Both the position numbers and the translations under genes were made by a program. Below are positions 3,181 through 27,570 of a DNA stretch of 64,000 nucleotides, piece by piece (the stretch's first letter is position 1; each line of letters begins with the position of its first letter). This DNA comes from Tubulanus polymorphus (taxonomy: Eukaryota; Nemertea; Palaeonemertea; Tubulaniformes; Tubulanidae): the NCBI RefSeq assembly GCF_964204645.1, contig NC_134032.1:684501-748500 (forward strand), in the 5' to 3' direction. The notes under the pieces are model-generated. The model saw only the letters and a list, made by a program, of their open reading frames with translations. It searched no databases and was not told the DNA's origin.

Positions 3181-5550
3181 CTAAATCGGGGGAGTCAATA
3201 CAGTGTTTATATTGTAGAATCTCAGTGACTCCTGATCATCACTGATATCCCAGTGATGGATAACTACAGTGTTACTGTTTAACACGTGATGTATGTCACC
3301 TGTCCTACTGTCTGTAGAGTTCAGTATTATACGCGGGTGATCTATAAACCCCTCATCATTATATCTGATACTAATAACAGCACCTCTGTTAACATGTTGA
3401 CCACAGTATACCGATAGTAATACTTGATTATCATTAATGACACACGGGAATCCTGCATATGGACCAAATGTCAGTCCGCAATCGTTCATATAAATAAAAC
3501 TGATCAATTCTGCTTCTGGTGTTAGATACAATAATCTGTGTGTACGCAAACAGTAGATAAATATACGTCCCCGCGTGTCGAAATCGAAACTGTTGATAGA
3601 GTAAAATCCATCCGGGAGCTGATAGTTCTTCACTCGGCATCTATCAATCAATCTGTTTTCAGGGTTTTCTAATAAACGTAAAACATGAATTTCACTATCT
3701 CCTGTCTGTATAAAGATATTGTGATCACGGATTACGAAGGATCCACAGACTACAGACAGGAGATCAGTGATATTTTCTTCGAAGAGTTTTTCCATATTTT
3801 TATATTTTCTCAGGATGTATTCACTGTTTTTCCTCACGACCACAAACAGAAACCCGTTACCATCAGCAGCGAGTCCTTGTATCCAACCATCAATCTCTAT
3901 GTATCTCTGTATATTATCATCATTCACACTATATATATAACCAGTGGAGTTATGGCTCGCACATATAACACGTGACTGTTCACCCTCGTGTTCACCGGGT
4001 ATTGACGTCACCAGGCTGAGGAAGTCTGTATCTACCCGTTTATTGACCGTCAATGAATCGATTATTCCTACACGTAGCCGCGTGACGTCATCGATACATC
4101 CCTCCAGTTTATCAATTCTCCCTATGACGTCCTCAGTAGATCGTTCCGCTCTATCCATTCTCTCTATGACATCATCAACAGATCCCTCCACATTTCCAAT
4201 TCTCTCTTTGACGTCATCAGTAGATCTTTCCACTTTATAATTTCTCCGTATGACGTCATCATTTATATTAGTCAGTTTTGTCTCCAATGCTTTAAGTTGT
4301 TGTTCAGTACAGAACCGGTTCAGCCTCTCTTCAAGTTGTTGTTCAGTACAGAACCGGTTCTGCCTCTCTTCAAGTTGTTGTTCAGTACAGAACCGGTTCA
4401 GCCTCTCTTCAAGTTGTTGTTCAGTACAGAACCGGTTCAGCCTCTCTTCAACTGTTTCTATAGTGTGTTTCAATTGACAGAATTGATTTTCTAAATTATC
4501 GTGAAACTGTCTGACATGTTCTATAAAAGACCGATGTCGTTCATCAATGTCTGATCGAACTGTTCGGGTTTCACTGATCGACACACCTACTGAATTTACT
4601 TTATACAAATTATGTGCCTGATTTGAAGCGATCACATGAAGCCCCGACACTAATGAATGCGGGGCTTGTTGAAGATGTGTTTTTAAGTTCCGCGCTGTTT
4701 CGTCGTCTGAGCATTTAACGATAAACACATGAATCGCTGGACAGTGATTAAACCCGATATGATGATTCGGTATCTCTACACCAGGGGGCGCTTCTCTCCA
4801 TTCTAATTTCACCTGAAATTGAAAAATATAGTTATATTAAGGGTGAAACTTAAGGGGGGGGGGGGGTTGCTGATACAATTTCATCGGAACTTATTGCAGC
4901 TCGAGCGCTGTAGGCATGGACGGGCGAGGCGGAGGTCAAACCCCCAGAAAGTTTTTGGAATTTTGCTGCTTTTAAAAATTATTTCCTGCAATCTCGGAAC
5001 AGTAACGGAACTCGGTTGGCTTCATGTCGTAGTAAATAAGATAAAAGATACGATCAGGGTGGAATTTTTCCGGGGGGAGAGGGGTGCACCAACTGCACCT
5101 GCCCCCCCCCACCTACGGGCCTGAAATTGTTTGCTGTACGAGACTAGAATTGTTGGATTCTTGATATTCGTATTCTGCGAATCGGGGTCTGGGTTTGGTA
5201 TATTATTCAACATTCAAGTAAAGAAATCAGACATATATATTTCTATCGGGTCCGAACGATGTATTGTTTACCTCGTCAAACGGCATCATTTGTACATTTA
5301 TAACTTGTTCCGTATAGATCGCTTTCAGTTTTACTTCGATAATAGTCTCTAATTCTTCTGTCCACATCTGTATCGGTAGTTGTAATTGATCACCAGCAGT
5401 AGCGATCAGATCACATTCTAAATCGAACAACGGTTGAAAGTAATAATTCTGTATCGTTCTGTAGTCGTTGTCGTGATCCGACCAAACACCGATCTTGCGA
5501 CCACGATAAGAAACTGCGAGCTCGAATCTGTACGTAGAATTAGACGCCAT
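3181..5550 (-). CDS. Propeller-array gene copy 2
   Basis: Exon 1 is 5272-5550 and exon 2 is 3181-4812 (stop TAG); the join is phase 0 and gives about 636 residues. I do not recognise residues 1 to about 190 as a named family; the composition looks like a compact alpha/beta domain. A coiled coil follows, with four 13-residue repeats of the type EERLNRFCTEQQL and then 14-residue repeats centred on DDV. The last 270 or so residues contain repeated D-x-x-G-x-I/L-F-x-x-V strands, as in NHL-type six-bladed propellers. No RING, B-box, signal peptide or membrane segment is seen, so the product is probably cytosolic. The first propeller hotspot reads SHN. A TRIM-like sensor role is inferred from the layout only. 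Confidence 0.85.
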
Positions 5551-6531
5551 GTTGTTTTTGGGCGTTTTCTTACTGTAGATTGTGCAGGCGTCACCTCCTC
5601 ACGCGCGCGGGTCTCACGCGTCTTGCCATAAAGTTAAAACCACACGGCACTGATAACACGAAACAGCGATACAAATACAATACTTATCAAATGATGAATA
5701 GACATGCTTTGAGATCGCTTGTTCTGAACGGTGTCTCCTGGTGAGCAGGAGAACCTCTCTTCCAGTGTCGACGCGGTTCCTAACGTGATACCGGCAAGGC
5801 TACTGTGCGAAGCGAGGATTCATTGATGATCCATAGGTGTCGCTAAGTGGTACGGGGTTTCCGCTATTCAATGTCCTCCCACATTTTTTTTATTCGAGTA
5901 GACTTTTCCGATTTTTAAATCAATTTTTAGTTAAATGAATACCATACCCTCCTGAACAAAATCTCAAGTAGAATACCCTGTAGTAAATTCGAGTCCGTTT
6001 GTCGTTTGGGCTGACTATACCAGGAAATATATAGTGGACTTCCGGAGCTTTCTCGGTAACTGATTGCTGTTAATGCTTGCTGTTGACTGAACTAACCTGA
6101 CCAGTTTATTTTAGATGTCACATATCCCAGGGACAATAACTGATTATAACTTATCCATGAAGCTTCTCTCGAGAATTGGCTGGTTAGACAAGTGAACCGA
6201 TTAGGATACTTAGGTCGGGTTTAGGCTTTAAAACCGACACAGATTGGAACATCGTTACAGCAAAGAGTACTCCGTATACCAAGTACGTTTTATCAAACTA
6301 GGTTAACGAAAATATAGATATCTACTTATTTTATTATATTATTATTATAATAATTATTACGAGCTACAATTTTGCAATTGATTGGTGGTAACAATCTTCA
6401 TTTTCTTAAATCAATCATATCAATCTGGGTTTCTAATGTGATAAAGAAAAACCCATTAAAGCAGGTTTTTTTGCGGCACGTTTTTTACTGCGAGGCCGCA
6501 TGTTCGATGTACTTAAGGGTTAAACGAATAT

Positions 6532-6725
6532 GATACCTTGTTTCTCCGCACGGCCGGGTCATTTTTGTAAAATATGATAAAATTTATAACCAGCACATTC
6601 CTATAGCTGACGGGTCTGTTACGGGTAAGATCGATCACGATTTCAAAAGAAAAGTAATGTACAGGGTAGATAGGCGGCCAGCCGGGTCAACTTTACAGCT
6701 CAGCGGGGCGGAGAAACAAGGTATC
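6532..6725. mobile_element. MITE in spacer 2/3, intact
   Basis: This 194-bp element has perfect 18-bp terminal inverted repeats (GATACCTTGTTTCTCCGC and its complement). Weaker inverted similarity continues outward (TTAAGGGTTAAA on the left, TTTTTAGCCTAA on the right). There is no coding capacity. The same family occurs outside the array. Confidence 0.85.
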
Positions 6726-7579
6726 AATTTTCTTTTTAGCCTAACTTCAAATATTTTTTACAATTCTAGTTTATTTATAATTTCAATAAAGAATCATCTG
6801 ACAAAGGTATACATTTCTAGCCTTAGTGAAAATATATTCTCTTCTGCGTCTTTTAATGTTAGTTTCATTAAAATCGATTGAAGTCAGTTTCGATACACTA
6901 GACCTGACCTAGTTGTCACTTAGTGGAAAAACTGGCGCGAATTTTTGGGCCGATCTTTCATCCTCGAGGGATCTATTAAAATAATAAACATTTAAATCCC
7001 CCATAATCGATCTATCGCTCTTGAACTACTGTCGTTCTAATAAAGGACAGTTCCATAACAAATTCACACTCGACCAAAATTGAGTCCAATTTAAACAATT
7101 TTCTCTAATTCAAGACGCTTAGGCGCTACATCCTAGCAGGCGCATAGCGCGCTTCGACAAAACGCAATCCGTGCATTTCGACTAAACTCTCTTTGAGACC
7201 GAACCGATATCGGATAACATAAAATTACAGGTCTGGTCTGGCGTTAGCGCAAGCGTCTGAAATTGGGCACCCTATATACCCTTCAAAATATGTATTTTAC
7301 TTTGAAAAATATAGATAAAAAGCTGAAGCACTGAATCCAGTGAATATTGTGGGGTCTGATCCCTTAACGACCTCCCCTGACCCCCAGGGGTAAAAGTTTT
7401 GATAGTAACAGGTTTTTTTCTGAAAGCCCATCTCGTGTTACATGAACCCGAGTTTGTTACCAATTTCTAACATTCGGCGCCTATAGAAGTATTTTTATGC
7501 GTTTTGCCGGCTGACTACGAGTAGCATTTCATTGTATACACGTCGTTCTCGAACCCTAGAATCGGTTTAGAATTCGGTT

Positions 7580-9984
7580 CTAAATCGGGGGAGTCAATAC
7601 AGTGTTTATATTGTAAAATCTCAATGAGTGCTGTAGGCCTATATTACTGTAATCCCAGTGTCGGATAACTACAGCGTTACTGTTTAACACGTGATGTATG
7701 TCACGTGTCACACTGTCTGTAGAGTTCAGTATTATACGCGGGTGATCTATAAACCCCTCATCATTATATCTGATACTAATAACAGCACCTCCGTTAACAC
7801 GGTGATCAGAGTATACCGATAGCAATACTTGATTATCATTAATGACACACGGGGATCCTGCATATGGACCAAATGTCAGTCCGCAATCGTGCATATAAAT
7901 AAAACTGATCAGTTCTGCTTCTGGTGTTAGATACAATAATCTGTGTGTATGCGAACAGTAGATAAATATACGTCCCCGCGTGTCCACATCGAAACTGTTG
8001 ATATACTTGTAATATCCACCCGGGAGCTGATAGTTCTTCACTCGGCATCTATCAATCAATCTGTTTACAGGGTTTTCTCGTAAAGGTAAAACATGAATGT
8101 CACTATCTCTATCTCCTGTCTGTATATAGATATTGTGATCACGGACCACTAAGGATCCACAGACTCTAGCCAGGAGATCAGTGATATTTTCTTCGAAGAG
8201 TTTTCTCTGATTTTTATATTTTCTCAGGATGTATTCACTGTTTTTCCACACGACCACAAACAGAAACCCGTTATTATCAGTATCGAGTCCTTGTATCCTA
8301 CCATCAATCTCTATGTATCTCTGTATATTATCATCATTCACACTATATATATAACCAGTGGAGTCATAGCGCGCACATATAACACGTGACTGTTCACCCT
8401 CGTGTTCACCAGGTAGTGACGTCACCAGGTGGGGTCTGAAATCTGTATCTACCCGTTTATTGACCGTCAATGAATCGATTATTCCTACACGTAGCCGCGT
8501 GACGTCATCGATAAATCCCTCCAGTTTATCAATTCTCCCTATGACGTCCTCAGTAGATCGTTCCGCTCTATCCATTCTCTCTATGACATCATCAACAGAT
8601 CCCTCCATATTTCCAATTCTCTCTTTGACGTCATCAGTAGATCTTTCCACTTTATAATTTCTCCGTATGAAGTCATCATTGATATTAGTCATTTTTGTCT
8701 CCAATGCTTTAAGTTGTTGTTCAGTACAGAACCGGTTCAGCCTTTCTTCAAGTTGTTGTTCAGTACAGCATTGGTTCAGCCTCTCTTCAAGTTGTTGTTC
8801 AGTACAGAACCGGTTCAGCCTCTCTTCAAGTTGTTGTTCAGTACAGAACCGGTTCAGCCTCTCTTCAACTGTTTCTATATTGTGTTTCAATTGACAGAAT
8901 TGATTTTCTAAATTATCGTGAAACTGTCTGACATGTTCTATAAAAGAACTATGTCGTTCATCAATGTCTGATCGAACTGTTCGGGTTTCACTGATCGGCA
9001 CACCTACTGAATTTACTTTATACAAATTATGTGCAGATGTCTGGTTTGAAGCGATCACATGAAGCCCCGACACTAATGAATGCGGGGCTTGTTGAAGATG
9101 TGTTTTTAAGTTTCGCGCTGTTTCATCGTCTGAGCATTTAACGATAAACACATGAATCGCCGGACAGTGATTAAACCCGATATGATGATTCGGTATCTCT
9201 ACACCAGGGGGCGCTTCTCTCCATTCTAGTTTCACCTGGAATTGAAAAATATAGTTATATTAAGGGTGAAACTTAAGGGGGGGTTGCTGATACAATTTCA
9301 TCGGAACTTATTGCAGCTCGAGCGCTGTAGGCATGATCGGGGAGGCGGAGGTTTAACCCCCAGAAAGTTTTTAGAATTTTGCTGCTTTTAAAAATGATTT
9401 CCTGCAATCTCGGAACAGTAACGGAACTCGGTTGGCTTCATGCCGTAGTAAATAAGACATAAGATACGATCAGGGTGGAATTTTTCCGGGGGGAGAGGGG
9501 TGCACCAACTGCACCTGTCCCCCCCCCCCCCACCTACGGTACTGAAATTGTTTGCTGTACGAGACTAGAATTGTTGGATTCTTGATATTCGTATTCTGCG
9601 AATCGGGGTCTGGGTTTGGTATATTATCAACTCTAAATTTTTATTCAACATTCAAGTAAAGAAATCAGACATATTTCTATCGGGTCCGAACGATGTATTG
9701 TTTACCTCGTCAAACGGCATCATTTGTACATTTATAACTTGTTCCGTATAGATCGATTTCAGTTCACATTTTATGTGGTTCTCTAATTCTTCTGTCCACA
9801 TCTGTATCGGTAGTTGTAATTGATCACCAGCAGTAGCGATCAGATCACATTCTAAATCGAACAACGGTTGAAAGTAATAATTCTGTATTGTTCTGTAGTC
9901 GTTGTCGTGATCCGACCAAACACCGATCTTGCGACCACGATAAGAAACTGCGAGCTCGAATCTGTACGTAGAATTAGACGCCAT
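7580..9984 (-). CDS. Propeller-array gene copy 3
   Basis: Exon 1 is 9706-9984, exon 2 is 7580-9235, product about 644 residues. Exon 1 has the ENHIKCELKS version of the variable segment, as in copies 4, 5 and 7. Four 13-residue coil repeats are present, the third with the variant core LNQCC. Propeller hotspots differ from copy 2: RYD in place of SHN, SHTH in place of LRTH, SDHRVNG in place of CGQHVNR, and a two-residue longer turn near the C terminus (DYSNIGLQH). The terminal residues of the propeller (FYNINTVLTPPI) match every other complete copy. The reading frame is intact, with the same donor and acceptor as in the other copies. Confidence 0.85.
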
Positions 9985-10967
9985 GTTGTTTTTGGGCGTT
10001 TTCTAACTGTAGATTGTGCAGGCGTGACCTCCTCACGCGCGCGGGTCTCACGCGTCTTGCCATAAAGTTAAAACCACACGGCACTGATAACACGAAACAG
10101 CGATACAAATACAATACTTATCAAATGATGAATAGACATGCTTTGAGATCGCTTGTTCTGAACGGTGTCTCCTGGTGAGCAGGAGAACCTCTCTTCCACT
10201 GTCGACGCGGTTCCTAACGTGATACCGGCAAGGCTACTGTGCGAAGCGAGGATTCATTGATGATCCATAGGTGTCGCTAAGTGGTACGGGGTTTCCGCTA
10301 TTCAATGTCCTCGCACATTTTTTTTATTCGAGTAGACTTTTCCGATTATTAAATCAATTTTTAGTTAAATGAATACCATACCCTCCTGAACAAAATCTCA
10401 AGTAGAATACCCTGTAGTAAATTCGAGTCCGTTTGTCGTTTGGGCTGACTATACCAGGAAATATATAGTGGACTTCCGGAGCTTTCTCGGTAACTGATTG
10501 CTGTTAATGCTTGCTGTTGACTGAACTCACCTGACCAGTTTATTTTAGATGTCACATATCCCAGGAACAAAAACTGATTATAACTTATCCATGAGGCTTC
10601 TCTCGAGAATTGGCTGGTTAGACAAGTGAACCGATTAGGATACTTAGGTCGGGTTTAGGCTTTAAAACCGACACCGATTGGAACATCGTTACAGCAAACA
10701 GTACTCCGTATACAAAGTACGTTTTATCAAACGAGGTTAACGAAAATATAGATATCTACTTATTTTATTATATTATTATTATCATTATTATTATTACGAG
10801 CTACAATTTTGCAATTGATTGGTGGTAACAATCTTCATTTTCTTAAATCAATCATATCAATCCGGGTTTCTAATGTGATAAAGAAAAACCCATTAAAGCA
10901 GGTTTTTTGCGGCACGTTTTTTACTGCGAGGCCGCATGTTCGGTGAACTTTAGGGTTAAACGAATAT

Positions 10968-11166
10968 GATACCTTGTTTCTCCGCACGGCCGGGTCATTT
11001 TTGTAAAATATGATAACATTTATAACCAGCACATTCCTATAGCTGACGGGTCTGTTACGGGTAAGATCGATCACGATTTGAAAAAAAAAACGTATTAATG
11101 TATAAGGTAGATAGGCGGCCAGCCGGGTCAACTTTACAGCTCAGCGGGGCGGAGAAACAAAGTATA
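10968..11166. mobile_element. MITE in spacer 3/4, right end deleted
   Basis: Same family and same right-end deletion as the element at 2216. The left side of this copy has FTTTAGGGTTAAA-type sequence private to spacers 3/4 and 4/5 (CGGTGAACTTTAGGG in place of CGATGTACTTAAGGG). Confidence 0.8.
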
Positions 11167-11938
11167 CATTTCTAGCCTTAGTGAAAATATATTCTCTTCT
11201 GCGTCTTTTAATGTTAATTTCATTAAAATCGATTGAAGTCAGTTTCGATACACTAGACCTGACCTAGTTGTCACTTAGTGGAAAAACTGGCGCGAATTTT
11301 AGGGCCGATCTTTCATCCTCGAGGGATCTATTAAAATAATAAACATTTAAATCCCCCATAATCGATCTATCGCTCTTGAACTACTGTCGTTCTAATAAAG
11401 GACAGTTCCATAAAAAATTCACACTCGACCAAAATTGAGTCCAATTTAAACAATTTTCTCTAATTCAAGACGCTTAGGCGCTACATCCTAGCAGGCGCAT
11501 AGCGCGCTTCGACAAAACGCAATCCGTGCATTTCGACTAAACTCTCTTTGAGACCGAACCGATATCGGATAACATAAAATTACAGGTCTGGTCTGGCGTT
11601 AGCGCAAGCGTCTGAAATTGGGCACCCTATATACCGTTAAAAATATGTATTTTACTTTGAAAAATATAGATAAATAGCTGAAGCACTGAATCCGGTGAAT
11701 ATTGTGGGGTCTGATCCCTTAACGACCTCCCCTGACCCCCAGGGGTAAAAGTTTTGATAGTAGCAGGTTTTTTTTCCTGAAAGCCCATCTCGTGTTACAT
11801 GAACCCGAATTTGTTACCAATTTCTAACATTCGGCGCCTATAGAAGTATTTTATGATGCGTTTTGCCGGCTGACTACGAGTAGCATTTCATTGTATACAC
11901 GTCGTTCTCGAACCCTAGAATCGGTTTAGACTTCGGTT

Positions 11939-14369
11939 CTAAATCGGGGGAGTCAATACAGTGTTTATATTGTAGAATCTCACTGAGTTCTGATCATCAC
12001 TGTTATCACGGTGATGGATAACTACAGTGTCACTGTCAAACACGTGATGTATGTCATATGTCACACTGTCTGTAGAGTTCAGTATTATACGCGGGTGATC
12101 TATAAACCCCTCATCATTATATCTGATACGGATAACAGCACCTCCGTTAACACGGTAATCAGAGTATACCGATAGCAATACTTGATTATCATTAATAACA
12201 CACGGGAATCCTGCATATGGAACAAATGTCAGTCCGCAATCGTTCATATAAATAAAACTGATCAATTCTGCTTCTGGTGTTAGATACAATAATCTGCGTG
12301 TACGCATACAGTAGATAAACATACGTCCCCGCGTGTCGACATCTAAACTGTCGATATTTAAGTAATCTCCATCCGGGAGCTGATATTTCTTCACTCGGCA
12401 TCTATCAATCAATCTGTTTACAGGGTTTTCTCGTAAAGGTAAAACATGAATGTCACTATCTCTATCTCCTGTCTGTATATAGATATTGTGATCACGGACC
12501 ACTAAGGATCCACAGACTCCAGGCGGGAGATCAGTGATATTTTCTTCGAAGAGTTTTTCCATATTTTTATATTTTCTCAGGATGTATTCACTGTTTTTCC
12601 ACACGACCACAAACAGAAACCCGTTATTATCAGTATCGAGTCCTTGTATCCTACCATCAATATCTATGTATCTCTGTATATTATCATCATTCACACTATA
12701 TATATAATCAGTCGAGCACCACTCCGCACATATAACACGTGACTGTTCACCCTCGTGTTCACCGGGTATTGACGTCATCAGGTGGGGTCTGAAATCTGTA
12801 TCTACCCGTTTATTGACCGTCAATGAATCGATTATTCCTACACGTAGCCGCGTGACGTCATCGATAAATCCCTCCAGTTTATCAATTCTCCCTATGACGT
12901 CCTCAGTAGATCGTTCCGCTCTATCCATTCTCTCTATGACATCATCAACAGATCCCTCCACATTTCCAATTCTCTCTTTGACGTCATCAGTAGATCTTTC
13001 CACTTTATATTTTCTCCGTATGAAGTCATCATTGATATTAGTCAGTTTTGTCTCCAATGCTTTAAGTTGTTGTTCAGTACAGAACCGGTTCAGCCTTTCT
13101 TCAAGTTGTTGTTCAGTACAGCATTGGTTCAGCCTCTCTTCAAGTTGTTGTTCAGTACAGAACCGGTTCAGCCTCTCTTCAAGTTGTTGTTCAGTGCAGA
13201 ACCGGTTCTGCCTCTCTTCAAGTTGTTGCTCAGTACAGAACCGGTTCAGCCTCTCTTCAACTGTTTCTATATTGTGTTTCAATTGACAGAATTGATTTTC
13301 TAAATTATCGTGAAACTGTCTGACATGTTCTATAAAAGAACTATGTCGTTCATCAATGTCTGATCGAACTGTTCGGGTTTCACTGATTGGCACACCTACT
13401 GAATTTACTTTATACAAATTATGTGCAGATGTCTGGTTTGAAGCGATCACATGAAGCCCCGACACTAATGAATGCGGGGCTTGTTGAAGATGTGTTTTTA
13501 AGTTTCGCGCTGTTTCATCGTCTGAGCATTTAACGATAAACACATGAATCGCTGGACAGTGATTAAACCCGATATGATGATTCGGTATCTCTACACCAGG
13601 GGGCGCTTCTCTCCATTCTAGTTTCACCTGGAATTGAAAAATATAGTTATATTAAGGGTGAAACTTAAGGGGGGGTTGCTGATACAATTTCATCGGAACT
13701 TATTGCAGCTCGAGCGCAGCATGATCGGGGAGGCGGAGGTTTAACCCCCAGAAAGTTTTTAGAATTTTGCTGCTTTTAAAAATGATTTCCTGCAATCTCG
13801 GAACAGTAACGGAACTCGGTTGGCTTCATGCCGTAGTAAATAAGACACAAGATACGATCAGGGTGGAATTTTTCCGGGGGGAGAGGGGTGCACCAACTGC
13901 ACCTGCCCCCCCCCCCACCTACGGTACTGAAATTGTTTGCTGTACGAGACTAGAATTGTTGGATTCTTGATATTCGTATTCTGCGAATCGGGGTCTGGGT
14001 TTGGTATATTATCAACTCTAAATTTTTATTCAACATTCAAGTAAAGAAATCAGACATATTTCTATCGGGTCCGAACGATGTATTGTTTACCTCGTCAAAC
14101 GGCATCATTTGTACATTTATAACTTGTTCCGTATAGATCGATTTCAGTTCACATTTTATGTGGTTCTCTAATTCTTCTGTCCACATCTGTATCGGTAGTT
14201 GTAATTGATCACCAGCAGTAGCGATCAGATCACATTCTAAATCGAACAACGGTTGAAAGTAATAATTCTGTATTGTTCTGTAGTCGTTGTCGTGATCCGA
14301 CCAAACACCGATCTTGCGACCACGATAAGAAACTGCGAGCTCGAATCTGTACGTAGAATTAGACGCCAT
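11939..14369 (-). CDS. Propeller-array gene copy 4
   Basis: Exon 1 is 14091-14369, exon 2 is 11939-13627, product about 655 residues, the longest in the array because the coil has five 13-residue repeats. The first propeller hotspot is EWC with a following D (STDYIYS). Other variable sites read LPPGVCGS, GDYLNIDS, MRTRRL and TYDIHHVFDSD. The middle of the propeller (DRDSDIHVLPLRENPVNRL) matches copy 3 while other parts match copy 7, so this copy appears mosaic. Its spacer (13,628-14,090 intron; 10,000-11,938 downstream side) carries the same internal MITE deletion as the spacer between copies 1 and 2. Frame intact. Confidence 0.85.
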
Positions 14370-15349
14370 GTTGTTTTTGGGCGTTTTCTAACTGTAGATT
14401 GTGCAGGCGTGACCTCCTCACGCGCGCGGGTCTCACGCGTCTTGCCATAAAGTTAAAACCACACGGCACTGATAACACGAAACAGCGATACAAATACAAT
14501 ACTTATCAAATGATGAATAGACATGCTTTGAGATCGCTTGTTCTGAACGGTGTCTCCTGGTGAGCAGGAGAACCTCTCTTCCACTGTCGACGCGGTTCCT
14601 AACGTGATACCGGCAAGGCTACTGTGCGAAGCGAGGATTCATTGATGATCCATAGGTGTCGCTAAGTGGTACGGGGTTTCCGCTATTCAATGTCCTCCCA
14701 CATTTTTTTTATTCGAGTAGACTTTTACGATTATTAAATCAATTTTTAGTTAAATGAATACCATACCCTCCTGAACAAAATCTCAAGTAGAATACCCTGT
14801 AATAAATTCGAGTCCGTTTGTCGTTTGGGCTGACTATACCAGGAAATATAGTGGACTTCGGAGCTTTCTCGGTAACTGATTGCTGTTAATGCTTGCTGTT
14901 GACTGAACTCACCTGACCAGTTTATTTTAGATGTCACATATCCCAGGGACAATAACTGATTATAACTTATCCATGAAGCTTCTCTCGAGAATTGGTTGGT
15001 AAGACAAGTGAACCGATTAGGATACTTAGGTCGGGTTTAGGCTTTAAAACCGACACAGATTGGAACATCGTTACAGCAAACAGTACTCCTATACCAAGTA
15101 CGTTTTATCAAACTAGGTTAACGAAAATATAGATATCTACTTATTTTATTATATTATTATTATCATTATTATTATTACGAGCTACAATTTTGCAATTGAT
15201 TGGTGGTAACAATCTTCATTTTCTTAAATCAATCATATCAATCCGGGTTTCTAATGTGATAAAGAAAAACCCATTAAAGCAGGTTTTTTTGCGGCACGTT
15301 TTTTACTGCGAGGCCGCATGTTCGGTGAACTTTAGGGTTAAACGAATAT

Positions 15350-15543
15350 GATACCTTGTTTCTCCGCACGGCCGGGTCATTTTTGAAAAATATGATAACA
15401 TTTATAACCAGCACATTCCTATAGCTGACGGGTCTGTTACGGGTAAGATCGATCACGATTTCAAAAGAAAAGTAATGTACAGGGTAGATAGGCGGCCAGC
15501 AGGGTCAACTTTACAGCTCAGCGGGGCGGAGAAACAAGGTATC
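15350..15543. mobile_element. MITE in spacer 4/5, intact
   Basis: 194 bp with both 18-bp terminal inverted repeats. It shares the CGGTGAACTTTAGGG left flank with spacer 3/4 but lacks that spacer's deletion, so the two markers do not follow one simple duplication order. Confidence 0.85.
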
Positions 15544-16400
15544 AATTTTCTTTTTAGCCTAACTTCAAATATTTTTTACAATTCTAGTTTATTTATAATT
15601 TCAATAAAGAATCATCTGACAAAGGTATACATTTCTAGCCTTAGTGAAAATATATTCTCTTCTGCGTCTTTTAATGTTAGTTTCATTAAAATCGATTGAA
15701 GTCAGTTTCGATACACTAGACCTGATCTAGTTGTCACTTAGTGGAAAAACTGGCGCGAATTTTAGGGCCGATCTTTCATCCTCGAGGGATCTATTAAAAT
15801 AATAAACATTTAAATCCCCCATAATCGATCTATCGCTCTTGAACTACTGTCGTTCTAATAAAGGACAGTTCCATAAAAAATTCACACTCGACCAAAATTG
15901 AGTCCAATTTAAACAATTTTCTCTAATTCAAGACGCTTAGGCGCTACATCCTAGCAGGCGCATAGCGCGCTTCGACAAAACGCAATCCGTGCATTTCGAC
16001 TAAACTCTCTTTGAGACTGAACCGATATCGGATAACATAAAATTACAGGTCTGGTCTGGCGTTAGCGCAAGCGTCTGAAATTGGGCACCCTATATACCCT
16101 TAAAAATATGTATTTTACTTTGAAAAATATAGATAAAAAGCTGAAGCACTGAATCCGGTGAATATTGTGGGGTCTGATCCCTTAACGACCTCCCCTGACC
16201 CCCAGGGGTAAAAGTTTTGATAGTAACAGGTTTTTTTTCTGAAAGCCCATCTCGTGTTACATGAACCCGAATTTGTTACCAATTTCTAACATTCCGCGCC
16301 TATAGAAGTATTTTATGATGCGTTTTGCCGGCGGACTACGAGTAGCATTTCATTGTATACACGTCGTTCTCGAACTCTAGAATCGGTTTAGACTTCGGTT

Positions 16401-18745
16401 CTAAATCGGGGGAGTTAATACAGTGTTTATATTGTAGAATCTCAGTGAGTTCTGATCATCACTGTTATCACGGTGTCGGATAACTACAGTGTTACTATTT
16501 AACACGTGATGTATGCGATACGTCATACTGTCTGTAGAGTTCAGTATTATACGCGGGTGATCTATAAACCCCACATCATTATATCTGATACTGATAACAG
16601 CACCTCTGTTAACACTGTTATCAGAGTATACCGATAGCAATACTTGATTATCATTAATGACACACGGGGATCCTGCATATGGATCAAATGTCAGTCCGCA
16701 ATCGTGCATATAAATAAAACTGATCAGTTCTGCTTCTGCTGTTAGAAACAATAATCTGCGTGTACGCATACAGTAGATAAATATACGTCCCCGCGTGTCC
16801 ACATCGAAACTGTTGATATACTTGTAACCTCCACCCGGGAGCTGATATTTCTTCACTCGATTTCTATCAATCAATTTGTTTTCAGGATTTTCTCGTAAAC
16901 GTAAAACACGAATGACACTACCTGTCTGTATAAAGATATTGTGATCACGGACCACTAAGGATGCACAGACTCCAGACATGAGATCAGAGATATTTTCTTC
17001 GAAGAGTTTTCTCTGATTTTTATATTTTCTCAGGATGAATTCACTGTTTTTCCCCACGACCACAAACAGAAACCCGTTACTATCAGCAGCGAGTCCTTGT
17101 ATCCAACCATCAATCTCTATGTATCTCTGTATATTATCATCATTCACACTATATATATAATCAGTGGAGCCCCAGTCCGCACATATAACACGTGACTGTT
17201 CACCCTCGTGTTCACCGGGTATTGACGTCACCAGGCCGAGGAAGTCTGTATCTACCTGTTTATTGACCGTCAATGAATCGATTATTCCTACACGTAACCG
17301 CGTGACGTCATCGATACATCCCTCCAGTTTATCAATTCTCCCTATGACGTCCTCAGTAGATCGTTCCGCTCTATCCATTCTCTCTATGACATCATCAACA
17401 GATCCCTCCACATTTCCAATTCTCTCTTTGACGTCATCAGTAGATCTTTCCACTTTATAATTTCTCCGTATGACGTCATCATTGATATTAGTCAGTTTTG
17501 TCTCCAATGCTTTAAGTTGCTGTTCAGTACAGCATTGGTTCAGCCTCTCTTCAAGTTGTTGTTCAGTACAGAACCGGTTCAGCCTCTCTTCAAGTTGTTG
17601 TTCAGTACAGAACCGGTTCAGCCTCTCTTCAACTGTTTCTATATTGTGTTTCAATTGACAGAATTGATTTTCTAAATTATCGTGAAACTGTCTGACATGT
17701 TCTATAAAAGAACTATGTCGTTCATCAATGTCTGATCGAACTGTTCGGGTTTCACTGATCGGCACACCTACTGAATTTACTTTATACAAATTATGTGCAG
17801 ATGTCTGGTTTGAAGCGATCACATGAAGCCCCGACACTAATGAATGCGGGGCTTGTTGAAGATGTGTTTTTAAGTTTCGCGCTGTTTCATCGTCTGAGCA
17901 TTTAACGATAAACACATGAATCGCTGGACAGTGATTAAACCCGATATGATGATTCGGTATCTCTACACCAGGGGGCGCTTCTCTCCATTCTAGTTTCACC
18001 TGGAATTGAAAAATATAGTTATATTAAGGGTGAAACTTAAGGGGGGGTTGCTGATACAATTTCATCGGAACTTATTGCAGCTCGAGCGCTGTAGGCATGA
18101 TCGGGGAGGCGGAGGTTTAACCCCCAGAAAGTTTTTAGAATTTTGCTGCTTTTAAAAATGATTTCCTGCAATCTCGGAACAGTAACGGAACTCGGTTGGC
18201 TTCATGCCGTAGTAAATAAGACATAGATACGATCAGGGTGGAATTTTTCCGGGGGGAGAGGGGTGCACCAACTGCACCTGTCCCCCCCCCCCACCTACGG
18301 TACTGAAATTGTTTGCTGTACGAGACTAGAATTGTTGGATTCTTGATATTCGTATTCTGCGAATCGGGGTCTGGGTTTGGTATATTATCAACTCTAAATT
18401 TTTATTCAACATTCAAGTAAAGAAATCAGACATATTTCTATCGGGTCCGAACGATGTATTGTTTACCTCGTCAAACGGCATCATTTGTACATTTATAACT
18501 TGTTCCGTATAGATCGATTTCAGTTCACATTTTATGTGGTTCTCTAATTCTTCTGTCCACATCTGTATCGGTAGTTGTAATTGATCACCAGCAGTAGCGA
18601 TCAGATCACATTCTAAATCGAACAACGGTTGAAAGTAATAATTCTGTATTGTTCTGTAGTCGTTGTCGTGATCCGACCAAACACCGATCTTGCGACCACG
18701 ATAAGAAACTGCGAGCTCGAATCTGTACGTAGAATTAGACGCCAT
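16401..18745 (-). CDS. Propeller-array gene copy 5
   Basis: Exon 1 is 18467-18745, exon 2 is 16401-17999, product about 625 residues, the shortest complete copy because the coil has only three 13-residue repeats. The first propeller hotspot is DWG. Further private changes include LMSGVCAS, a shortened turn TGSVIRVLRL where copies 3 and 4 have an extra RDSD, SDNSVNRG, and SMTYRIHHV. The N-terminal domain and exon 1 are almost the same as in copies 3, 4 and 7. Nothing disrupts the frame. The gap to copy 6 carries a full-length MITE. Confidence 0.85.
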
Positions 18746-19728
18746 GTTGTTTTTGGGCGTTTTCTAACTGTAGATTGTGCAGGCGTGACCTCCTCACGCG
18801 CGCGGGTCTCACGCGTCTTGCCATAAAGTTAAAACCACACGGCACTGATAACACGAAACAGCGATACAAATACAATACTTATCAAATGATGAATAGACAT
18901 GCTTTGAGATCGCTTGTTCTGAACGGTGTCTCCTGGTGAGCAGGAGAACCTCTCTTCCAGTGTCGACGCGGTTCCTAACGTGATACCGGCAAGGCTACTG
19001 TGCGAAGCGAGGATTCATTGATGATCCATAGGTGTCGCTAAGTGGTACGGGGTTTCCGCTATTCAATGTCCTCGCACATTTTTTTTATTCGAGTAGACTT
19101 TTCCGATTATTAAAATCAATTTTTAGTTAAATGAATACCATACCCTCCTGAACAAAATCTCAAGTAGAATACCCTGTAATAAATTCGAGTCCGATTGTCG
19201 TTTGGGCTGACTATACCAGGAAATATATAGTGGACTTCCGGAGCTTTCTCGGTAACTGATTGCTGTTTATGCTCGCTGTTGACTGAACTCACCTGACCAG
19301 TTTATTTTAGATGTCACATATCCCAGGGACAATAACTGATTATAACTTATCCATGAGACTTCTCTCGAGAATTGGCTGCTTAGACAAGTGAACCGATTAG
19401 GATACTTAGGTCGGGTTTAGGCTTTAAAACCGACACAGATTGGAACATCGTTACAGCAAACAGTACTCCGTATACCAAGTACGTTTTATCAAACGAGGTT
19501 AACGAAAATATAGATATCTACTTATTTTATTATATTATTATTATCATTATTATTATTACGAGCTACAATTTTGCAATTGATTGGTGGTAACAATCTTCAT
19601 TTTCTTAAATCAATCATATCAATCCGGGTTTCTAATGTGATAAAGAAAAACCCATTGAAGCAGGTTTTTGCGGCACGTTTTTTACTGCGAGGCCGCATGT
19701 TCGATGTACTTAAGGGTTAAACGAATAT

Positions 19729-19922
19729 GATACCTTGTTTCTCCGCACGGCCGGGTCATTTTTGAAAAATATGATAAAATTTATAACCAGCACATTCCTA
19801 TAGCTGACGGGTCTGTTACGGGTAAGATCGATCACGATTTCAAAAGAAAAGTAATGTACAGGGTAGATAGGCGGCCAGCAGGGTCAACTTTACAGCTCAG
19901 CGGGGCGGAGAAACAAGGTATC
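19729..19922. mobile_element. MITE in spacer 5/6, intact
   Basis: 194 bp with both terminal inverted repeats; non-coding. Confidence 0.85.
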
Positions 19923-20779
19923 AATTTTCTTTTTAGCCTAACTTCAAATATTTTTTACAATTCTAGTTTATTTATAATTTCAATAAAGAATCATCTGACA
20001 AAGGTATACATTTCTAGCCTTAGTGAAAATATATTCTCTTCTGCGTCTTTTAATGTTAGTTTCATTAAAATCGATTGAAGTCAGTTTCGATACACTAGAC
20101 CTGACCTAGTTGTCACTTAGTGGAAAAACTGGCGCGAATTTTAGGGCCGATTTTTCATCCTCGAGGGATCTATTAAAATAATAAACATTTAAATCCCCCA
20201 TAATCGATCTATCGCTCTAGAACTACTGTCGTTCTAATAAAGGACAGTTCCATAAAAAATTCACACTCGACCAAAATTGAGTCCAATTTAAACAATTTTC
20301 TCTAATTCAAGACGCTTAGGCGCTACATCCTAGCAGGCGCATAGCGCGCTTCGACAAAACGCAATCCGTGCATTTCGACTAAACTCTCTTTGAGACTGAA
20401 CCGATATCGGATAACATAAAATTACAGGTCTGGTCTGGCGTTAGCGCAAGCGTCTGAAATTGGGCACCCTATATACCCTTCAAAATATGTATTTTACTTT
20501 GAAAAATATAGATAAATAGCTGAAGCACTGAATCCGGTGAATATTGTGGGGTCTGATCCCTTAACGACCTCCCCTGACCCCCAGGGGTAAAAGTTTTGAT
20601 AGTAACAGGTTTTTTTTCTGAAAGCCCATCTCGTGTTACATGAACCCGAGTTTGTTACCAATTTCTAACATTCGGCGCCTATAGAAGTATTTTATGATGC
20701 GTTTTGCCGGCGGACTACGAGTAGCATTTCATTGTATACACGTCGTTCTCGAACTCTAGAATCGGTTTAGACTTCGGCT

Positions 20780-23110
20780 CTAAATCGGGGGAGTTAATAC
20801 AGTGTTTATATTGTAGAATCTCAGTGACTTCTGATCATCACTGTTATCCCAGTGTCGGATAGCTACAGTGTTACTGTTTAACACGTGATGTATGTCACAT
20901 GTCACACAGTCTGTAGAGTTCAGTATTATACGCGGGTGATCTATAAACCCCTGATTATTATATCTGATACTGATAACAGCACCTCTGTTAACACAGGGAT
21001 CAGAGCATACCGATAGTAATATACGATCATCATTAATAACACACGGGTGTCCTGCACATGGATTAAATTCTAGTGCACAATCGTTCATATTGATAAAACT
21101 AATCTCGTTCGCATCTGCTGTTAGAAACAGTAATCTATGAGTCGTTTCACAGTAAAGAAACATCCGTCCCTTTGAATCGACATCGAAACAGTTGATATTA
21201 CCGTAACCTCCATCCGGGAGCTGATATTTCTTCACTCGATTTCTATTTATCAAACTGTTAACAGGGTTTTCTAATAAACGTAAAACATGAACGTCTCTTC
21301 CTAACTGTATATAGATATTGTAATCACGGATCACTAAGGATACACAGACTCCAGGCAGGAGATCATTGATATTTTCTTCAAACAGTTTTTGCTTATCTTT
21401 ATATTTTCTCAGGATGAATTTCCTATTTTTTTTTACGAGCGCAAACAGATCCCCGTTACTATCAGTAGCGAGTCCTTTTACACCACCGCCATCAATCTTT
21501 ATGTATCTATCAAATTCATCATCATCATAATCATAATCATCGTCATCATTCATGCAATATATATAATTAGTGGCGCTGAACTCGGCACATATAACACGTG
21601 ACTGTTCACCCGCATGTTCACCAGGTAGTGACGTCATCAGGTCGGGTGTGAAGTCTGTATCTATCAGTTTACTGATCATCAATGGCGCGCATTCTACACG
21701 TAGCCGCGTGACGTCATCAATATGTATCTCTAATTCATCAATTCTCCTTTTGACATCATCAGTAATTTTGGATAGTTTTGCCCCCATATCATCATTGATA
21801 TTGGTCAGTTTTTCCTCAAGTTGTTGTTCAGTACAGCACCGGTTCAGCCTGATCTCTTCAAGTTGCTGTTCAGTACAGAACCGGTTCAGCCTCTCTTCAA
21901 GTTGTTGCTCAGTGCAGAACCGGTTCAGCCTCTCTTCAAGTTGCTGTTCAGTACAGAACCGGTTCAGCCTCTCTTCAAGTTGTTGTTCAGTGCAGCACCG
22001 GTTCAGCTTCTCTTCAACTGTTTCTATATTGTGTTTCAATTGACAGAATTGATTTTCTAGATTATCGTGAAACTGTCTGACATGTTCTATAAAAGAACTA
22101 TGTCGTTCATCAATGTCTGATCGAACTGTTCGGGTTTCACTGATCGACACACCTACTGAATTTACTTTATACAAATTATGTGCAGATGCCTGGTTTGAAG
22201 CGATCACATGAAGCCCCGACACTAATGAATGCGGGGCTTGTTGAAGATGTGTTTTTAAGTTTTGCGCTGTTTCATCGTCTGAGCATTTAACGATAAACAC
22301 ATGAATCGCTGGACAGTGATTAAACCCGATATGATGATTCGGTATCTCTACACCAGGGGGCGCTTCTCTCCATTCTAGTTTCACCTGGAATTGAAAAATA
22401 TAGTTATATTAAGGGTGAAACTTAAGGGGGGGGTGCTGATACAATTTTCATCTGATTTATTGCAGCTCGAGCGCTGTAGGCATGATCGGGGAGGCGGAGG
22501 TTTAACCCCCAGAAAGTTTTTAGAATTTTGCTGCTTTTAAAAATGATTTCCTGCAATCTCGGAACAGTAACGGAACTCGGTTGGCTTCATGCCGTAGTAA
22601 ATAAGACATAAGATACGATCAGGGTGGAATTTTTCCGGGGGGAGAGGGGTGCACCAACTGCACCTGCCCCCCCCCCACCTACGGAACTGAAATTGTTTGC
22701 TGTACGAGACTAGAATTGTTGGATTCTTGATATTCGTATTCTGCGAATCGGTCTGGGTTTGGTATATTATTCAACATTCAAGTAAAGAAATCAGACATAT
22801 TTCTATCGGGTCCGAACGATGTATTGTTTACCTCGTCAAACGGCATCATTTGTACATTTATAACTTGTTCCGTATAGATCGCTTTCAGTTTTACTTCGAT
22901 AATAGTCTCTAATTCTTCTGTCCACATCTGTATCGGTAGTTGTAATTGATTACCAGCAGTAGCGATCAGATCACATTCTAAATCGAACAACGGTTGAAAG
23001 TAATAATTCTGTATTGTTCTGTAGTCGTTGTCGTGATCCGACCAAACACCGATCTTGCGACCACGATAAGAAACTGCGAGCTCGAATCTGTACGTAGAAT
23101 TAGACGCCAT
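20780..23110 (-). CDS. Propeller-array gene copy 6, the most divergent
   Basis: Exon 1 is 22832-23110, exon 2 is 20780-22384, product about 627 residues. The N-terminal domain matches the other copies, but exon 2 departs strongly from the coil onward. There are five 13-residue repeats, two with the variant LNRCC core and one with an extra Ile. The 14-residue DDV repeats present elsewhere are mostly missing. The propeller has many private substitutions and an acidic insertion (DDDDYDYDDDEF) encoded by a GAT/TAT-type triplet expansion at about 21,512-21,553. Exon 1 carries the ETIIEVKLKA version. The flanks are as similar to other units as theirs are to each other, so divergence is concentrated in the coding part. 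Confidence 0.85.
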
Positions 23111-24088
23111 GTTGTTTTTGGGCGTTTTCTAACTGTAGATTGTGCAGGCGTGACCTCCTCACGCGCGCGGGTCTCACGCGTCTTGCCATAAAGTTAAAAC
23201 CACACGGCACTGATAACACGAAACAGCGATACAAATACAATACTCATCAAATGATGAATAGACATGCTTTGAGATCGCTTGTTCTGAACGGTGTCTCCTG
23301 GTGAGCAGGAGAACCTCTCTTCCAGTGTCGACGCGGTTCCTAACGTGATACCGGCAAGGCTACTGTGCGAAGCGAGGATTCATTGATGATCCATAGGTGT
23401 CGCTAAGTGGTACGGGGTTTCCGCTATTCAATGTCCTCCCACATTTTTTTTATTCGAGTAGACTTTTACGATTATTAAATCAATTTTTAGTTAAATGAAT
23501 ACCATACCCTCCTGAACAAAATCTCAAGTAGAATACCCTGTAGTAAATTCGAGTCCGTTTGTCGTTTGGGCTGACTATACCAGGAAATATATAGTGGACT
23601 TCGGAGCTTTCTCGGTAACTGATTGCTGTTAATGCTTGCTGTTGACTGAACTAACCTGACCAGTTTATTTTAGATGTCACATATCCCAGGGACAATAACT
23701 GATTATAACTTATCCATGAAGCTTCTCTCGAGAATTGGCTGGTTAGACAAGTGAACCGATTAGGATACTTAGGTCGGGTTTAGGCTTTAAAACCGACACA
23801 GATTGGAACATCGTTACAGCAAACAGTACTCCGTATACCAAGTACGTTTTATCAAACGAGGTTAACGAAAATATAGATATCTACTTATTTTATTATATTA
23901 TTATTATAATAATTATTACGAGCTACAATTTTGCAATTGATTGGTGGTAACAATCTTCATTTTCTTAAATCAATCATATCAATCCGGGTTTCTAATGTGA
24001 TAAAGAAAAACCCATAAAAGCAGGTTTTTGCGGCACGTTTTTTACTGCGAGGCCGCATGTTCGATGTACTTAAGGGTTAAACGAATAT

Positions 24089-24283
24089 GATACCTTGTTT
24101 CTCCGCAGCGGCCGGGTCATTTTTGTAAAATATGATAAAATTTATAACCAGCACATTCCTATAGCTGACGGGTCTGTTACGGGTAAGATCGATCACGATT
24201 TCAAAAGAAAAGTAATGTACAGGGTAGATAGGCGGCCAGCCGGGTCAACTTTACAGCTCAGCGGGGCGGAGAAACAAGGTATC
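24089..24283. mobile_element. MITE in spacer 6/7, intact
   Basis: 195 bp with both terminal inverted repeats. One extra base next to the left repeat (CCGCAGCGGCC) is shared with the element at 2216. Confidence 0.85.
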
Positions 24284-25141
24284 AATTTTCTTTTTAGCCT
24301 AACTTCAAATATTTTTTACAATTCTAGTTTATTTATAATTTCAATAAAGAATCATCTGACAAAGGTATACATTTCTAGCCTTAGTGAAAATATATTCTCT
24401 TCTGCGTCTTTTAATGTTAGTTTCATTAAAATCGATTGAAGTCAGTTTCGATACACTAGACCTGACCTAGTTGTCACTTAGTGGAAAAACTGGCGCGAAT
24501 TTTTGGGCCGATCTTTCATCCTCGAGGGATCTATTAAAATAGTAAACATTTAAATCCCCCATAATCGATCTATCGCTCTTGAACTACTGTCGTTCTGATA
24601 AAGGACAGTTCCATAAAAAATTCACACTCGACCAAAATTGAGTCCAATTTAAACAATTTTCTCTAATTCAAGACGCTTAGGCGCTACATCCTAGCAGGCG
24701 CATAGCGCGCTTCGACAAAACGCAATCCGTGCATTTCGACTAAACTCTCTTTGAGACTGAACCGATATCGGATAACATAAAATTACAGGTCTGGTCTGGC
24801 GTTAGCGCAAGCGTCTGAAATTGGGCACCCTATATACCCTTCAAAATATGTATTTTACTTTGAAAAATATAGATAAAAAGCTGAAGCACTGAATCCAGTG
24901 AATATTGTGGGGTCTGATCCCTTAACGACCTCCCCTGACCCCCAGGGGTAAAAGTTTTGATAGTAGCAGGTTTTTTTTCCTGAAAGCCCATCTCGTGTTA
25001 CATGAACCCGAATTTGTTACCAATTTCTAACATTCCGCGCCTATAGAAGTATTTTATGATGCGTTTTGCCGGCGGACTACGAGTAGCATTTCATTGTATA
25101 CACGTCGTTCTGGAACCCTAGAATCGGTTTAGAATTCGGCT

Positions 25142-27570
25142 CTAAATCGGGGGAGTTAATACAGTGTTTATATTGTAGAATCTCAGTGAGTTCTGATCAT
25201 CACTGTTATCCCAGTGACGGATAGCTACAGTGTTACTGTTTAACACGTGATGTATGTCACATGTCACACTGTCTGTAGAGTTCAGTATTATACGCGGGTG
25301 ATCTATAAACCCCACATCATTATATCTGATACGGATAACAGCACCTCTGTTAACACGGTAATCAGAGCATACCGATAGCAATACTTGATTATCATTAATA
25401 ACACACGGGAATCCTGCATATGGAACAAATGTCAGTCCGCAATCGTTCATATAAATAAAACTGATCAATTCTGCTTCTGGTTTTAGATACAATAATCTGC
25501 GTGTACGCAAACAGTAGATAAATATACGTCCCCGCGTGTCGAAATCGAAACTGTTGATAGAGTAAAATCCATCCGGGAGCTGATATTTCTTCACTCGGCA
25601 TCTATCAATCAATCTGTTTTCAGGGTTTTCTAATAAACGTAAAACATGAATTTCACTATCTCCTGTCTGTATAAAGATATTGTGATCACGGATTACGAAG
25701 GATCCACAGACTACAGACAGGAGATCAGTGATATTTTCTTCGAAGAGTTTTTCCATATTTTTATATTTTCTCAGGATGTATTCACTGTTTTTCCTCACGA
25801 CCACAAACAGAAACCCGTTACCATCAGCAGCGAGTCCATGTATCCAACCATCAATCTCTATGTATCTCTGTATATTATCATCATTCACACTATATATATA
25901 ACCAGTGGAGTTATGGCTCGCACATATAACACGTGACTGTTCACCCTCGTGTTCACCGGGTATTGACGTCATCAGGTGGGGTCTGAAATCTGTATCTACC
26001 CGTTTATTGACCGTCAATGAATCGATTATTCCTACACGTAGCCGCGTGACGTCATCGATAAATCCCTCCAGTTTATCAATTCTCCCTATGACGTCCTCAG
26101 TAGATCGTTCCGCTCTATCCATTCTCTCTATGACATCATCAACAGATCCCTCCACATTTCCAATTCTCTCTTTGACGTCATCAGTAGATCTTTCCACTTT
26201 ATAATTTCTCCGTATGAAGTCATCATTGATATTAGTCATTTTTGTCTCCAATGCTTTAAGTTGTTGTTCAGTACAGAACCGGTTCAGCCTTTCTTCAAGT
26301 TGTTGTTCAGTACAGCATTGGTTCAGCCTCTCTTCAAGTTGTTGTTCAGTACAGAACCGGTTCAGCCTCTCTTCAAGTTGTTGTTCAGTGCAGAACCGGT
26401 TCTGCCTCTCTTCAAGTTGTTGCTCAGTACAGAACCGGTTCAGCCTCTCTTCAACTGTTTCTATATTGTGTTTCAATTGACAGAATTGATTTTCTAAATT
26501 ATCGTGAAACTGTCTGACATGTTCTATAAAAGAACTATGTCGTTCATCAATGTCTGATCGAACTGTTCGGGTTTCACTGATTGGCACACCTACTGAATTT
26601 ACTTTATACAAATTATGTGCAGATGTCTTGTTTGAAGCGATCACATGAAGCCCCGACACTAATGAATGCGGGGCTTGTTGAAGATGTGTTTTTAAGTTTC
26701 GCGCTGTTTCATCGTCTGAGCATTTAACGATAAACACATGAATCGCTGGACAGTGATTAAACCCGATATGATGATTCGGTATCTCTACACCAGGGGGCGC
26801 TTCTCTCCATTCTAGTTTCACCTGGAATTGAAAAATATAGTTATATTAAGGGTGAAACTTAAGGGGGGGTTGCTGATACAATTTCATCGGAACTTATTGC
26901 AGCTCGAGCGCAGCATGATCGGGGAGGCGGAGGTTTAACCCCCAGAAAGTTTTTAGAATTTTGCTGCTTTTAAAAATGATTTCCTGCAATCTCGGAACAG
27001 TAACGGAACTCGGTTGGCTTCATGCCGTAGTAAATAAGACACAAGATACGATCAGGGTGGAATTTTTCCGGGGGGAGAGGGGTGCACCAACTGCACCTGC
27101 CCCCCCCCCCCCCCCCCACCTACGGTACTGAAATTGTTTGCTGTACGAGACTAGAATTGTTGGATTCTTGATATTCGTATTCTGCGAATCGGGGTCTGGG
27201 TTTGGTATATTATCAACTCTAAATTTTTATTCAACATTCAAGTAAAGAAATCAGACATATTTCTATCGGGTCCGAACGATGTATTGTTTACCTCGTCAAA
27301 CGGCATCATTTGTACATTTATAACTTGTTCCGTATAGATCGATTTCAGTTCACATTTTATGTGGTTCTCTAATTCTTCTGTCCACATCTGTATCGGTAGT
27401 TGTAATTGATCACCAGCAGTAGCGATCAGATCACATTCTAAATCGAACAACGGTTGAAAGTAATAATTCTGTATTGTTCTGTAGTCGTTGTCGTGATCCG
27501 ACCAAACACCGATCTTGCGACCACGATAAGAAACTGCGAGCTCGAATCTGTACGTAGAGTTAGATGCCAT
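25142..27570 (-). CDS. Propeller-array gene copy 7, 5'-most copy
   Basis: Exon 1 is 27292-27570, exon 2 is 25142-26821, product about 652 residues with five coil repeats. The first part of the propeller, including hotspots SHN, LLSVVCGS and DGFYSIN, matches copy 2. The rest (SDYRVNRGAVIRIRYND, TCDIHHV, RHWDNSDDQ) resembles copies 4 and 6, a clear mosaic. The leader upstream of the ATG differs from other copies. It lacks the upstream AUG they share and instead stays open in frame back to an ATG at 27708, which would add 46 residues if transcribed. I chose 27570 because it matches all other copies. Confidence 0.83.

Follow-up and report, generated by a model that had tools for sequence, protein, structure and literature searches.

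Invertebrates have no antibodies, and where their specific recognition comes from is an open question. A tandem gene array in the palaeonemertean Tubulanus polymorphus raises it in a concrete form: why do neighboring genes that are almost identical over most of their length differ so much in the propeller that ends their products? The array lies partly in a stretch of 64,000 nucleotides (the window; C8:684501–748500, C8 being contig NC_134032.1) of a 268-Mb, 77-contig genome, and partly in the 60 kb to its left, which we also examined. Our answer is that these genes probably form a germline-encoded repertoire of intracellular recognition proteins, in which the top face of the propeller is the variable reading surface and in which sister genes provide a caspase output; they seem to be a family of inherited recognition proteins that has not been described before. 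An initial annotation, made from the sequence alone, had proposed a candidate undescribed recognition system, and this proposal gains support from three checks: the dN/dS ratio (ω) exceeds 1 at the hot sites, the variable sites map in the predicted structure mainly to one face and not to the core, and the spacers diverge far less than the propeller does.

The array comprises ten tandem copies (c1–c10; C8:670322–712070), all on the minus strand, with a period of about 4.4 kb. The six complete copies previously noticed at positions 3181–27570 of the window (c5–c10) were confirmed, and four more lie to their left, the window edge cutting through one of them (c4). Each copy consists of a first exon encoding 93 residues, which ends in a phase-0 donor (GAG/GTA), and of a second exon of 532–562 codons plus the stop; the splice sites, inferred from the DNA, agree with RefSeq models such as P0001 (LOC141909790, made of c5 exons 1 and 2). 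The reading frame is open from ATG to stop in all ten copies (626–656 codons including the stop). Neither the coding sequence nor the intron distinguishes c2 from c4. A divergent subtype, made up of c3 and c9, has a shorter second coil part and an acidic (Asp/Tyr-rich) insert.

Divergence between copies is concentrated in the propeller. Among c6, c7, c8, and c10, pairwise nucleotide differences amount to 0–0.6% in introns, 0.2–0.9% in the N-terminal domain (N-domain), 0.4–1.6% in the coil and 6.3–8.4% in the propeller, and the spacers of c6–c8 differ by 1.2–1.8% (this comparison includes no spacer of c10). When all ten copies are compared, intron differences reach 7.5% (in pairs with c1 or c3) and propeller differences 19.2%, with 0.3–1.9% for the nine spacers. 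The hot sites described after VICA, before VCGS, after QLP, after IYC, after LSV, and before IHHV are all present. The constancy claimed outside the propeller holds for the introns and N-domain of c6, c7, c8, and c10; it needs amending for the near-constant exon 1, where residue 54 varies and six residues within 69–77 occur mainly as one of two versions, an ENHIKCELKS type and an ETIIEVKLKA type (with one further change in c1). These versions do not fully match the propeller groups, as c5 and c10 share propeller tracts and not the version, which is a further sign that the genes are mosaic.

Pooled Nei–Gojobori ω over the 45 pairs is 0.44 for exon 1, 0.17 for the start of exon 2, 0.48 for the coil, and 0.93 for the propeller. 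Propeller ω lies between 1.19 and 2.71 in pairs of closer copies (c2, c5, c6, c7, c8, and c10) and between 0.64 and 0.92 in pairs with c1, c3, or c9, except for c3–c9 (1.02). Column counts that use no tree give 125 nonsynonymous versus 26 synonymous steps for the six closer copies (ω 1.53, p = 0.027). The initial annotation had taken the excess of coding over noncoding change as the mark of diversifying selection: the contrast is real, but synonymous divergence (dS) is raised in the propeller as well (0.028–0.075 among c6, c7, c8, and c10; 0.028–0.087 among the six closer copies), exceeding in most pairs the intron and spacer divergence of these six. The contrast alone is thus no proof, and for this reason the case for diversifying selection rests on site models and on the placement of variable sites. 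We infer that the propeller lineages are older than the otherwise homogenized genes that carry them, or were imported into them.

Where do the variable residues lie? The predicted fold is a six-bladed propeller with four-stranded blades and an N-terminal strand that closes blade six, and it matches the NHL domains of Brat, Lin41, and Mei-P26. DSSP assigns 23 strands of at least 3 residues to this region of the model, and the 24th was placed by hand at 478–488, a region of low confidence. Faces were assigned by strand order in this model and not by three-dimensional distances. A first strand register, in which blade 1 had no fourth strand, was replaced by one in which strand 342–355 closes blade six, because the latter fills six blades of four strands and because NHL rows align from model residue ~341–349, the closing strand in Mei-P26; this revision was made after the first result had been seen. 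In the register used, 26 of the 30 most variable C8 sites belong to the top half and 4 to the bottom, for 145 of 275 sites on top overall (p = 4e-5), and a set from another contig, C12, likewise places 26 of its 30 hottest sites on top. Mean entropies of the top and bottom halves are 0.566 and 0.356 for C8, and 0.318 and 0.097 for C12. The count is still 26 of 30 in both sets when residues 475–496 are omitted, and it is 24 (C8) and 25 (C12) of 30 when the count starts at residue 403, from which point the two registers coincide (p = 0.0013 and 0.0003). The two sets, separate by place though not proven to be independent, share 14 of their 30 hottest sites (3.2 expected). Apart from clear exceptions such as 433–434 and 580, which are hot and yet on the bottom, the suspicion that the variable loops occupy one face is therefore mainly borne out in this register. 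The C8 set included 19 of 21 propellers, without c4 (same as c2) and R760; L036, which has one stop, was kept there with an X at the stop and is absent from the site models and the Sawyer-type test below. L031 and L043 were dropped because our script did not find the propeller start, and L047 was omitted as near-identical to L046.

Site models M1a and M2a were run in our own implementation with three segment trees, on nine array copies plus L029 and L030, which make up 11 of the 21 usable propellers of C8, and on nine of the ten usable C12 propellers. For the 11 array-type sequences, the log likelihood (lnL) rises from −3680.8 to −3595.9 (2ΔlnL = 169.8), with ω of 7.3 at 13.7% of sites; the largest 2ΔlnL in eight null simulations of this set was 2.86. 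The C12 sequences give 2ΔlnL = 66.4 and ω of 6.3, again at 13.7% of sites, and 37–41% of propeller sites have ω near 0. Sites with a posterior above 0.9 fall on the top half in 22 of 27 cases for the array set and in all 16 for C12; where both registers agree, the figures are 17 of 22 (p = 0.013) and 12 of 12 (p = 4e-4). In the predicted model, positive selection acts on the d–a and b–c loops of the top face, as in the HET-D/HET-E type of recognition propeller. When only single-nucleotide steps are counted, top-half ω is 1.38 (p = 0.051) for the 11 array-type sequences, 1.88 (p = 0.007) for the array8 set, 2.12 (p = 0.0045) for five caspase-linked sequences, and 1.33 (p = 0.12) for C12, with bottom-half values of 0.77, 0.97, 1.66, and 0.44, respectively.

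The propeller also recombines. The PHI test detects recombination there (p = 0.001, the minimum possible with 1000 shuffles); the N-domain, with 20 informative sites, shows no such signal (p = 0.16). When 18 C8 propellers were compared by a Sawyer-type test, 12 of the 153 pairs shared a tract at global significance, including c8–L035 and c1–L035, each of which joins an array gene to a caspase-fused gene; some of these results may owe something to the propeller being unevenly conserved along its length.

Between the N-domain and the propeller, a coiled-coil stalk is predicted from long helices at residues 187–220 and 295–337 (low confidence) and from 13-residue repeats. The latter are encoded on the minus strand by an in-frame 39-bp unit at 4290–4451 (c5), 8707–8868 (c6), 13060–13260 (c7), 17510–17632 (c8), 21816–22017 (c9), and 26254–26454 (c10). 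The number of units differs by copy, with about 3 in c8 at the low end and over 20 in P0005 (counted by eye) at the high end, and as this is a coding minisatellite of variable unit number, the length of the stalk itself varies. Pfam matches to Galaxin_repeat and DUF445 in P0005 and P0006 were rejected as reflecting composition because they fall in the coil repeats. The N-domain resembles no Pfam family above cut-off and no PDB fold with confidence, as the initial annotation had anticipated. The TRIM-like plan that it also proposed survives in the coiled coil and the NHL-type propeller, and not in the RING and B-box, for which Pfam gave no match in exon 2 of c9 and c10, exon 1 of c10, ten relatives, or 10 of the 41 listed frames of one of the nine spacers, a RING in a distant upstream exon being possible. 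The NHL repeat signature (PF01436) was not matched at E-values up to 1 in the exons of c9 and c10 or up to 0.5 in searches that included the ten relatives, and Pfam found neither NACHT nor WD40 in exon 2 of c9 and c10, a match of c9 to NNH2 (NACHT N-terminal helical; E = 0.37, 10.9 bits) being far below the cut-off of 27. Inspection by eye, no predictor having been run, revealed neither a signal peptide nor a membrane segment.

How far does the family extend? Searching the genome with c10 exon 2 returned at least 113 matches, among which, by our own count from the match table, 47 are near-complete propellers (starting at query position 325 or earlier and ending at 552 or later): 23 on C8, 11 on C12, and 13 on C2, C3, C6, C7, C11, and C40. 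An internal stop interrupts 5 of the 47. Divergent members on C2 and C7 (29–36% identity) also have the second half of the N-domain (two of three matched in the genome search, the third by eye) and the coil, so this plan is probably the older one. One of these, on C2 (L049; C2:4703500–4708000), has a frame of 1345 codons that seems to link the second half of the N-domain (recognized by eye) through a highly extended, repetitive coil to a divergent propeller with 29% identity. To the right of the window, a single-exon frame of 1068 codons (L010; C8:759532–762735) encodes two propellers around long DVIGRVDKVEKST-type coil repeats. Two near-identical stretches with family genes, C12:6188369–6194503 and C12:6334157–6340286, lie about 146 kb apart and reflect either a recent large-scale duplication or a duplicate created in assembly. 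In protein searches, all named relatives were from T. polymorphus, one search having scored only 7998 candidates that share most words, so that distant relatives could be missed. The literature, which we covered in part, yielded nothing on this family or on a link between NHL and caspase; this is weak evidence of absence.

In sister genes, the same propeller is fused at the DNA level to a caspase. A caspase domain follows the propeller in P0012, P0013, and P0015, and, according to precomputed domains, in P0019. By sequence, the domain is a putative C14 catalytic domain, in sister genes only (3.1e-67 for P0012, 5.9e-67 for P0015). P0012 has SHG and QACRG, which we take to be the catalytic His and Cys motifs of caspases, and P0015 has SHV and QACRG; P0019 as annotated has no QACRG. 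At C8:930567–929380, the propeller and the start of the caspase share an open frame of 396 codons. A census of caspases gave 44 exon matches, 14 of which start at model position 5 or earlier; half of these (7 of 14) stand directly behind a family propeller (C8 929431, 2266594, 2306588, 3084224, 3231431, and 3717439; C11 13881410), and in five of the seven loci propeller and caspase start are in one open frame, to judge by the equal frame lengths in the propeller and caspase searches. In five or more additional caspase loci, the match begins only at later model positions. About 23 kb left of the array, two caspase exons (L007 and L006; C8:644384–646960), one with an intact SHGEKGD, have no family propeller nearby.

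Several observations weigh against the interpretation given at the outset. The tree-free ω is 0.93 (p = 0.73) for the ten copies and 1.47 (p = 0.061) for four; the single-step excess on the top half is nonsignificant for the 11 array-type sequences and for C12, and the bottom half of the caspase-linked sequences also exceeds 1 (p = 0.086). The M1a/M2a comparison is likewise positive, to a lesser degree, for the coil (20.8, p = 3e-5) and marginal for the N-domain (6.8, p = 0.033), so the test responds to clustered change too, and part of the propeller 2ΔlnL of ~170 is probably such change. Codon models assume trees, and the propeller recombines, a problem that segment trees soften and do not remove. 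The first strand register showed no top–bottom difference for C8 (p = 0.29), while C12 favored the top under that register too (p = 0.001). As to the output, the P0013 gene model lacks the SHG motif, the frame is broken between or within propeller and caspase in two of the seven loci (2306588 and 3231431), and a caspase follows only 7 of the ~47 near-complete propellers and none of the ten array genes. Could there be no selection for diversity at all, the propeller being relaxed or subject to clustered mutation while gene conversion homogenizes the rest, so that the contrast and the values above 1 are artefacts? The raised propeller dS, the positive coil control, the ten-copy ω, and the share of multinucleotide steps (29 of the 211 counted on the top half for the 11 array-type sequences) would all fit this. 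We nevertheless regard it as very improbable: every copy keeps its frame open, over a third of propeller sites have ω near 0, single-step ω exceeds 1 on the top half in all four sets, significantly in two, and a placement mainly on one face, repeated in C12, is unexpected under relaxed constraint.

The proteins would accordingly be read as an almost fixed N-domain, a stalk built from repeats of 13 residues, and an NHL-type propeller of six blades, whose BC and DA loops and adjoining strand ends would form the variable reading surface. Tandem duplication would provide the copies, gene conversion would homogenize most of the gene and move propeller tracts between copies, and selection would retain new variants of the top face. 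This face, the ligand side of known NHL domains, may read variable targets, perhaps of parasites or microbes. Caspases are activated by proximity. Since the same propeller is fused to a caspase in sister genes, binding of a ligand most probably promotes clustering and activation of these propeller–caspases, leading to cell death or cleavage. The array proteins could be sensors that recruit partners through N-domain and coil, or themselves be partners or decoys; a cytosolic location and oligomerization would suit such roles. A part in defense is what we infer, and the presence of this propeller on caspases elsewhere in the genome strengthens the case for immunity.

Duplicated receptor families with a diversified ligand face are known as a kind; the NHL-type propeller as the part concerned, its direct fusion to a caspase, the N-domain, and the animal group are new. 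The same evolutionary logic is seen in HET-D and HET-E of Podospora anserina, where positive selection is described in the loop that connects strand d with the following strand a and in the b–c turn on the top face, and propeller sequence is exchanged within and between family members (PMC1805685). Both features recur here, but the fungal propellers are of WD40 type, exchange near-identical units one by one, and carry NACHT and HET, whereas this animal family has an NHL-type propeller, no NACHT that we found, and a caspase effector in sister genes. That likeness, together with the top-face placement of selected sites in both C8 and C12, would also suit recognition within the species (allorecognition, or sperm–egg and self/nonself recognition with a cell-death output as in the fungus). 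We consider this unlikely: the lack of any signal peptide or membrane segment noticed by eye makes recognition at the cell surface less likely, and nemerteans are not known to fuse cells as fungi do.

The teleost finTRIMs and primate TRIM5alpha share with the repertoire proposed here a coiled coil with a C-terminal ligand domain behind it, positive selection on the loops of that domain, and expansion by duplication; their ligand domain is instead B30.2/PRYSPRY, and they possess the RING and B-boxes not found here (PMC2657112). TRIM-NHL proteins (Brat, Mei-P26, TRIM2/3/71) combine a coiled coil with a six-bladed propeller that binds ligand by its top face, a fold that the array propeller shares by prediction; in the family described here, no RING, B-box, or Pfam NHL match was found, and known TRIM-NHLs are mostly conserved regulators, not a hypervariable tandem repertoire. 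According to PMC9070667 and PMC9634614, the top faces of Brat and Lin41 bind RNA, the Mei-P26 NHL domain binds single-stranded RNA, and its N-terminal strand closes blade six. The fold match thus lends something to the idea that transposon or viral RNA or proteins are what the top face reads, in an arms race with mobile elements. It seems quite unlikely to us, as Pfam recognizes no NHL repeat here, the charge of the hot residues is mixed, with many acidic or aromatic ones (by eye) and no constant positive patch, and a caspase output ill fits a silencing role. Metazoan initiator caspases and the amphioxus caspases of new domain architecture resemble the fused sister genes in placing a C14 caspase behind an N-terminal recruitment or sensor region; their prodomains, however, are death folds (CARD, DED, DD; PMC3196919), in place of which a propeller stands here.

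We give about even chances to the more specific view that the recognition repertoire is an animal counterpart of NLR-like or HET-E-like systems built without NACHT, LRR, Ig, or death fold, from a hypervariable NHL-like propeller, in some members coupled to a caspase, and a novel N-domain. If so, the logic of HET-D/HET-E, with its loops and exchange, would operate in an animal that attaches a caspase in sister genes, a convergent answer to the same problem with named residues, genes, and output; the N-domain, so far seen only in T. polymorphus, would be a new signaling part.

Within the window, all array exons are on the minus strand. The start of c4 exon 2 is at 1–493 (the remainder lies left of the window) and its exon 1 at 955–1233. 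Exon 2, its propeller, and exon 1 occupy, respectively, 3181–4812, 3181–4035, and 5272–5550 in c5; 7580–9235, 7580–8452, and 9706–9984 in c6; 11939–13627, 11939–12805, and 14091–14369 in c7; 16401–17999, 16401–17255, and 18467–18745 in c8; 20780–22384, 20780–21664, and 22832–23110 in c9, of the divergent subtype with c3; and 25142–26821, 25142–25999, and 27292–27570 in c10. Immediately upstream of c10, the outermost copy, a 43-bp minisatellite (27728–28385; 15.3 copies at 96%) yields long repetitive frames. A 109-bp satellite lies at 33463–34710 (11.4 copies at 97%), and minisatellites abound in the right half of the window (36075–36607, 46255–46645, 49882–50286, 59564–59951, and 62851–63200).

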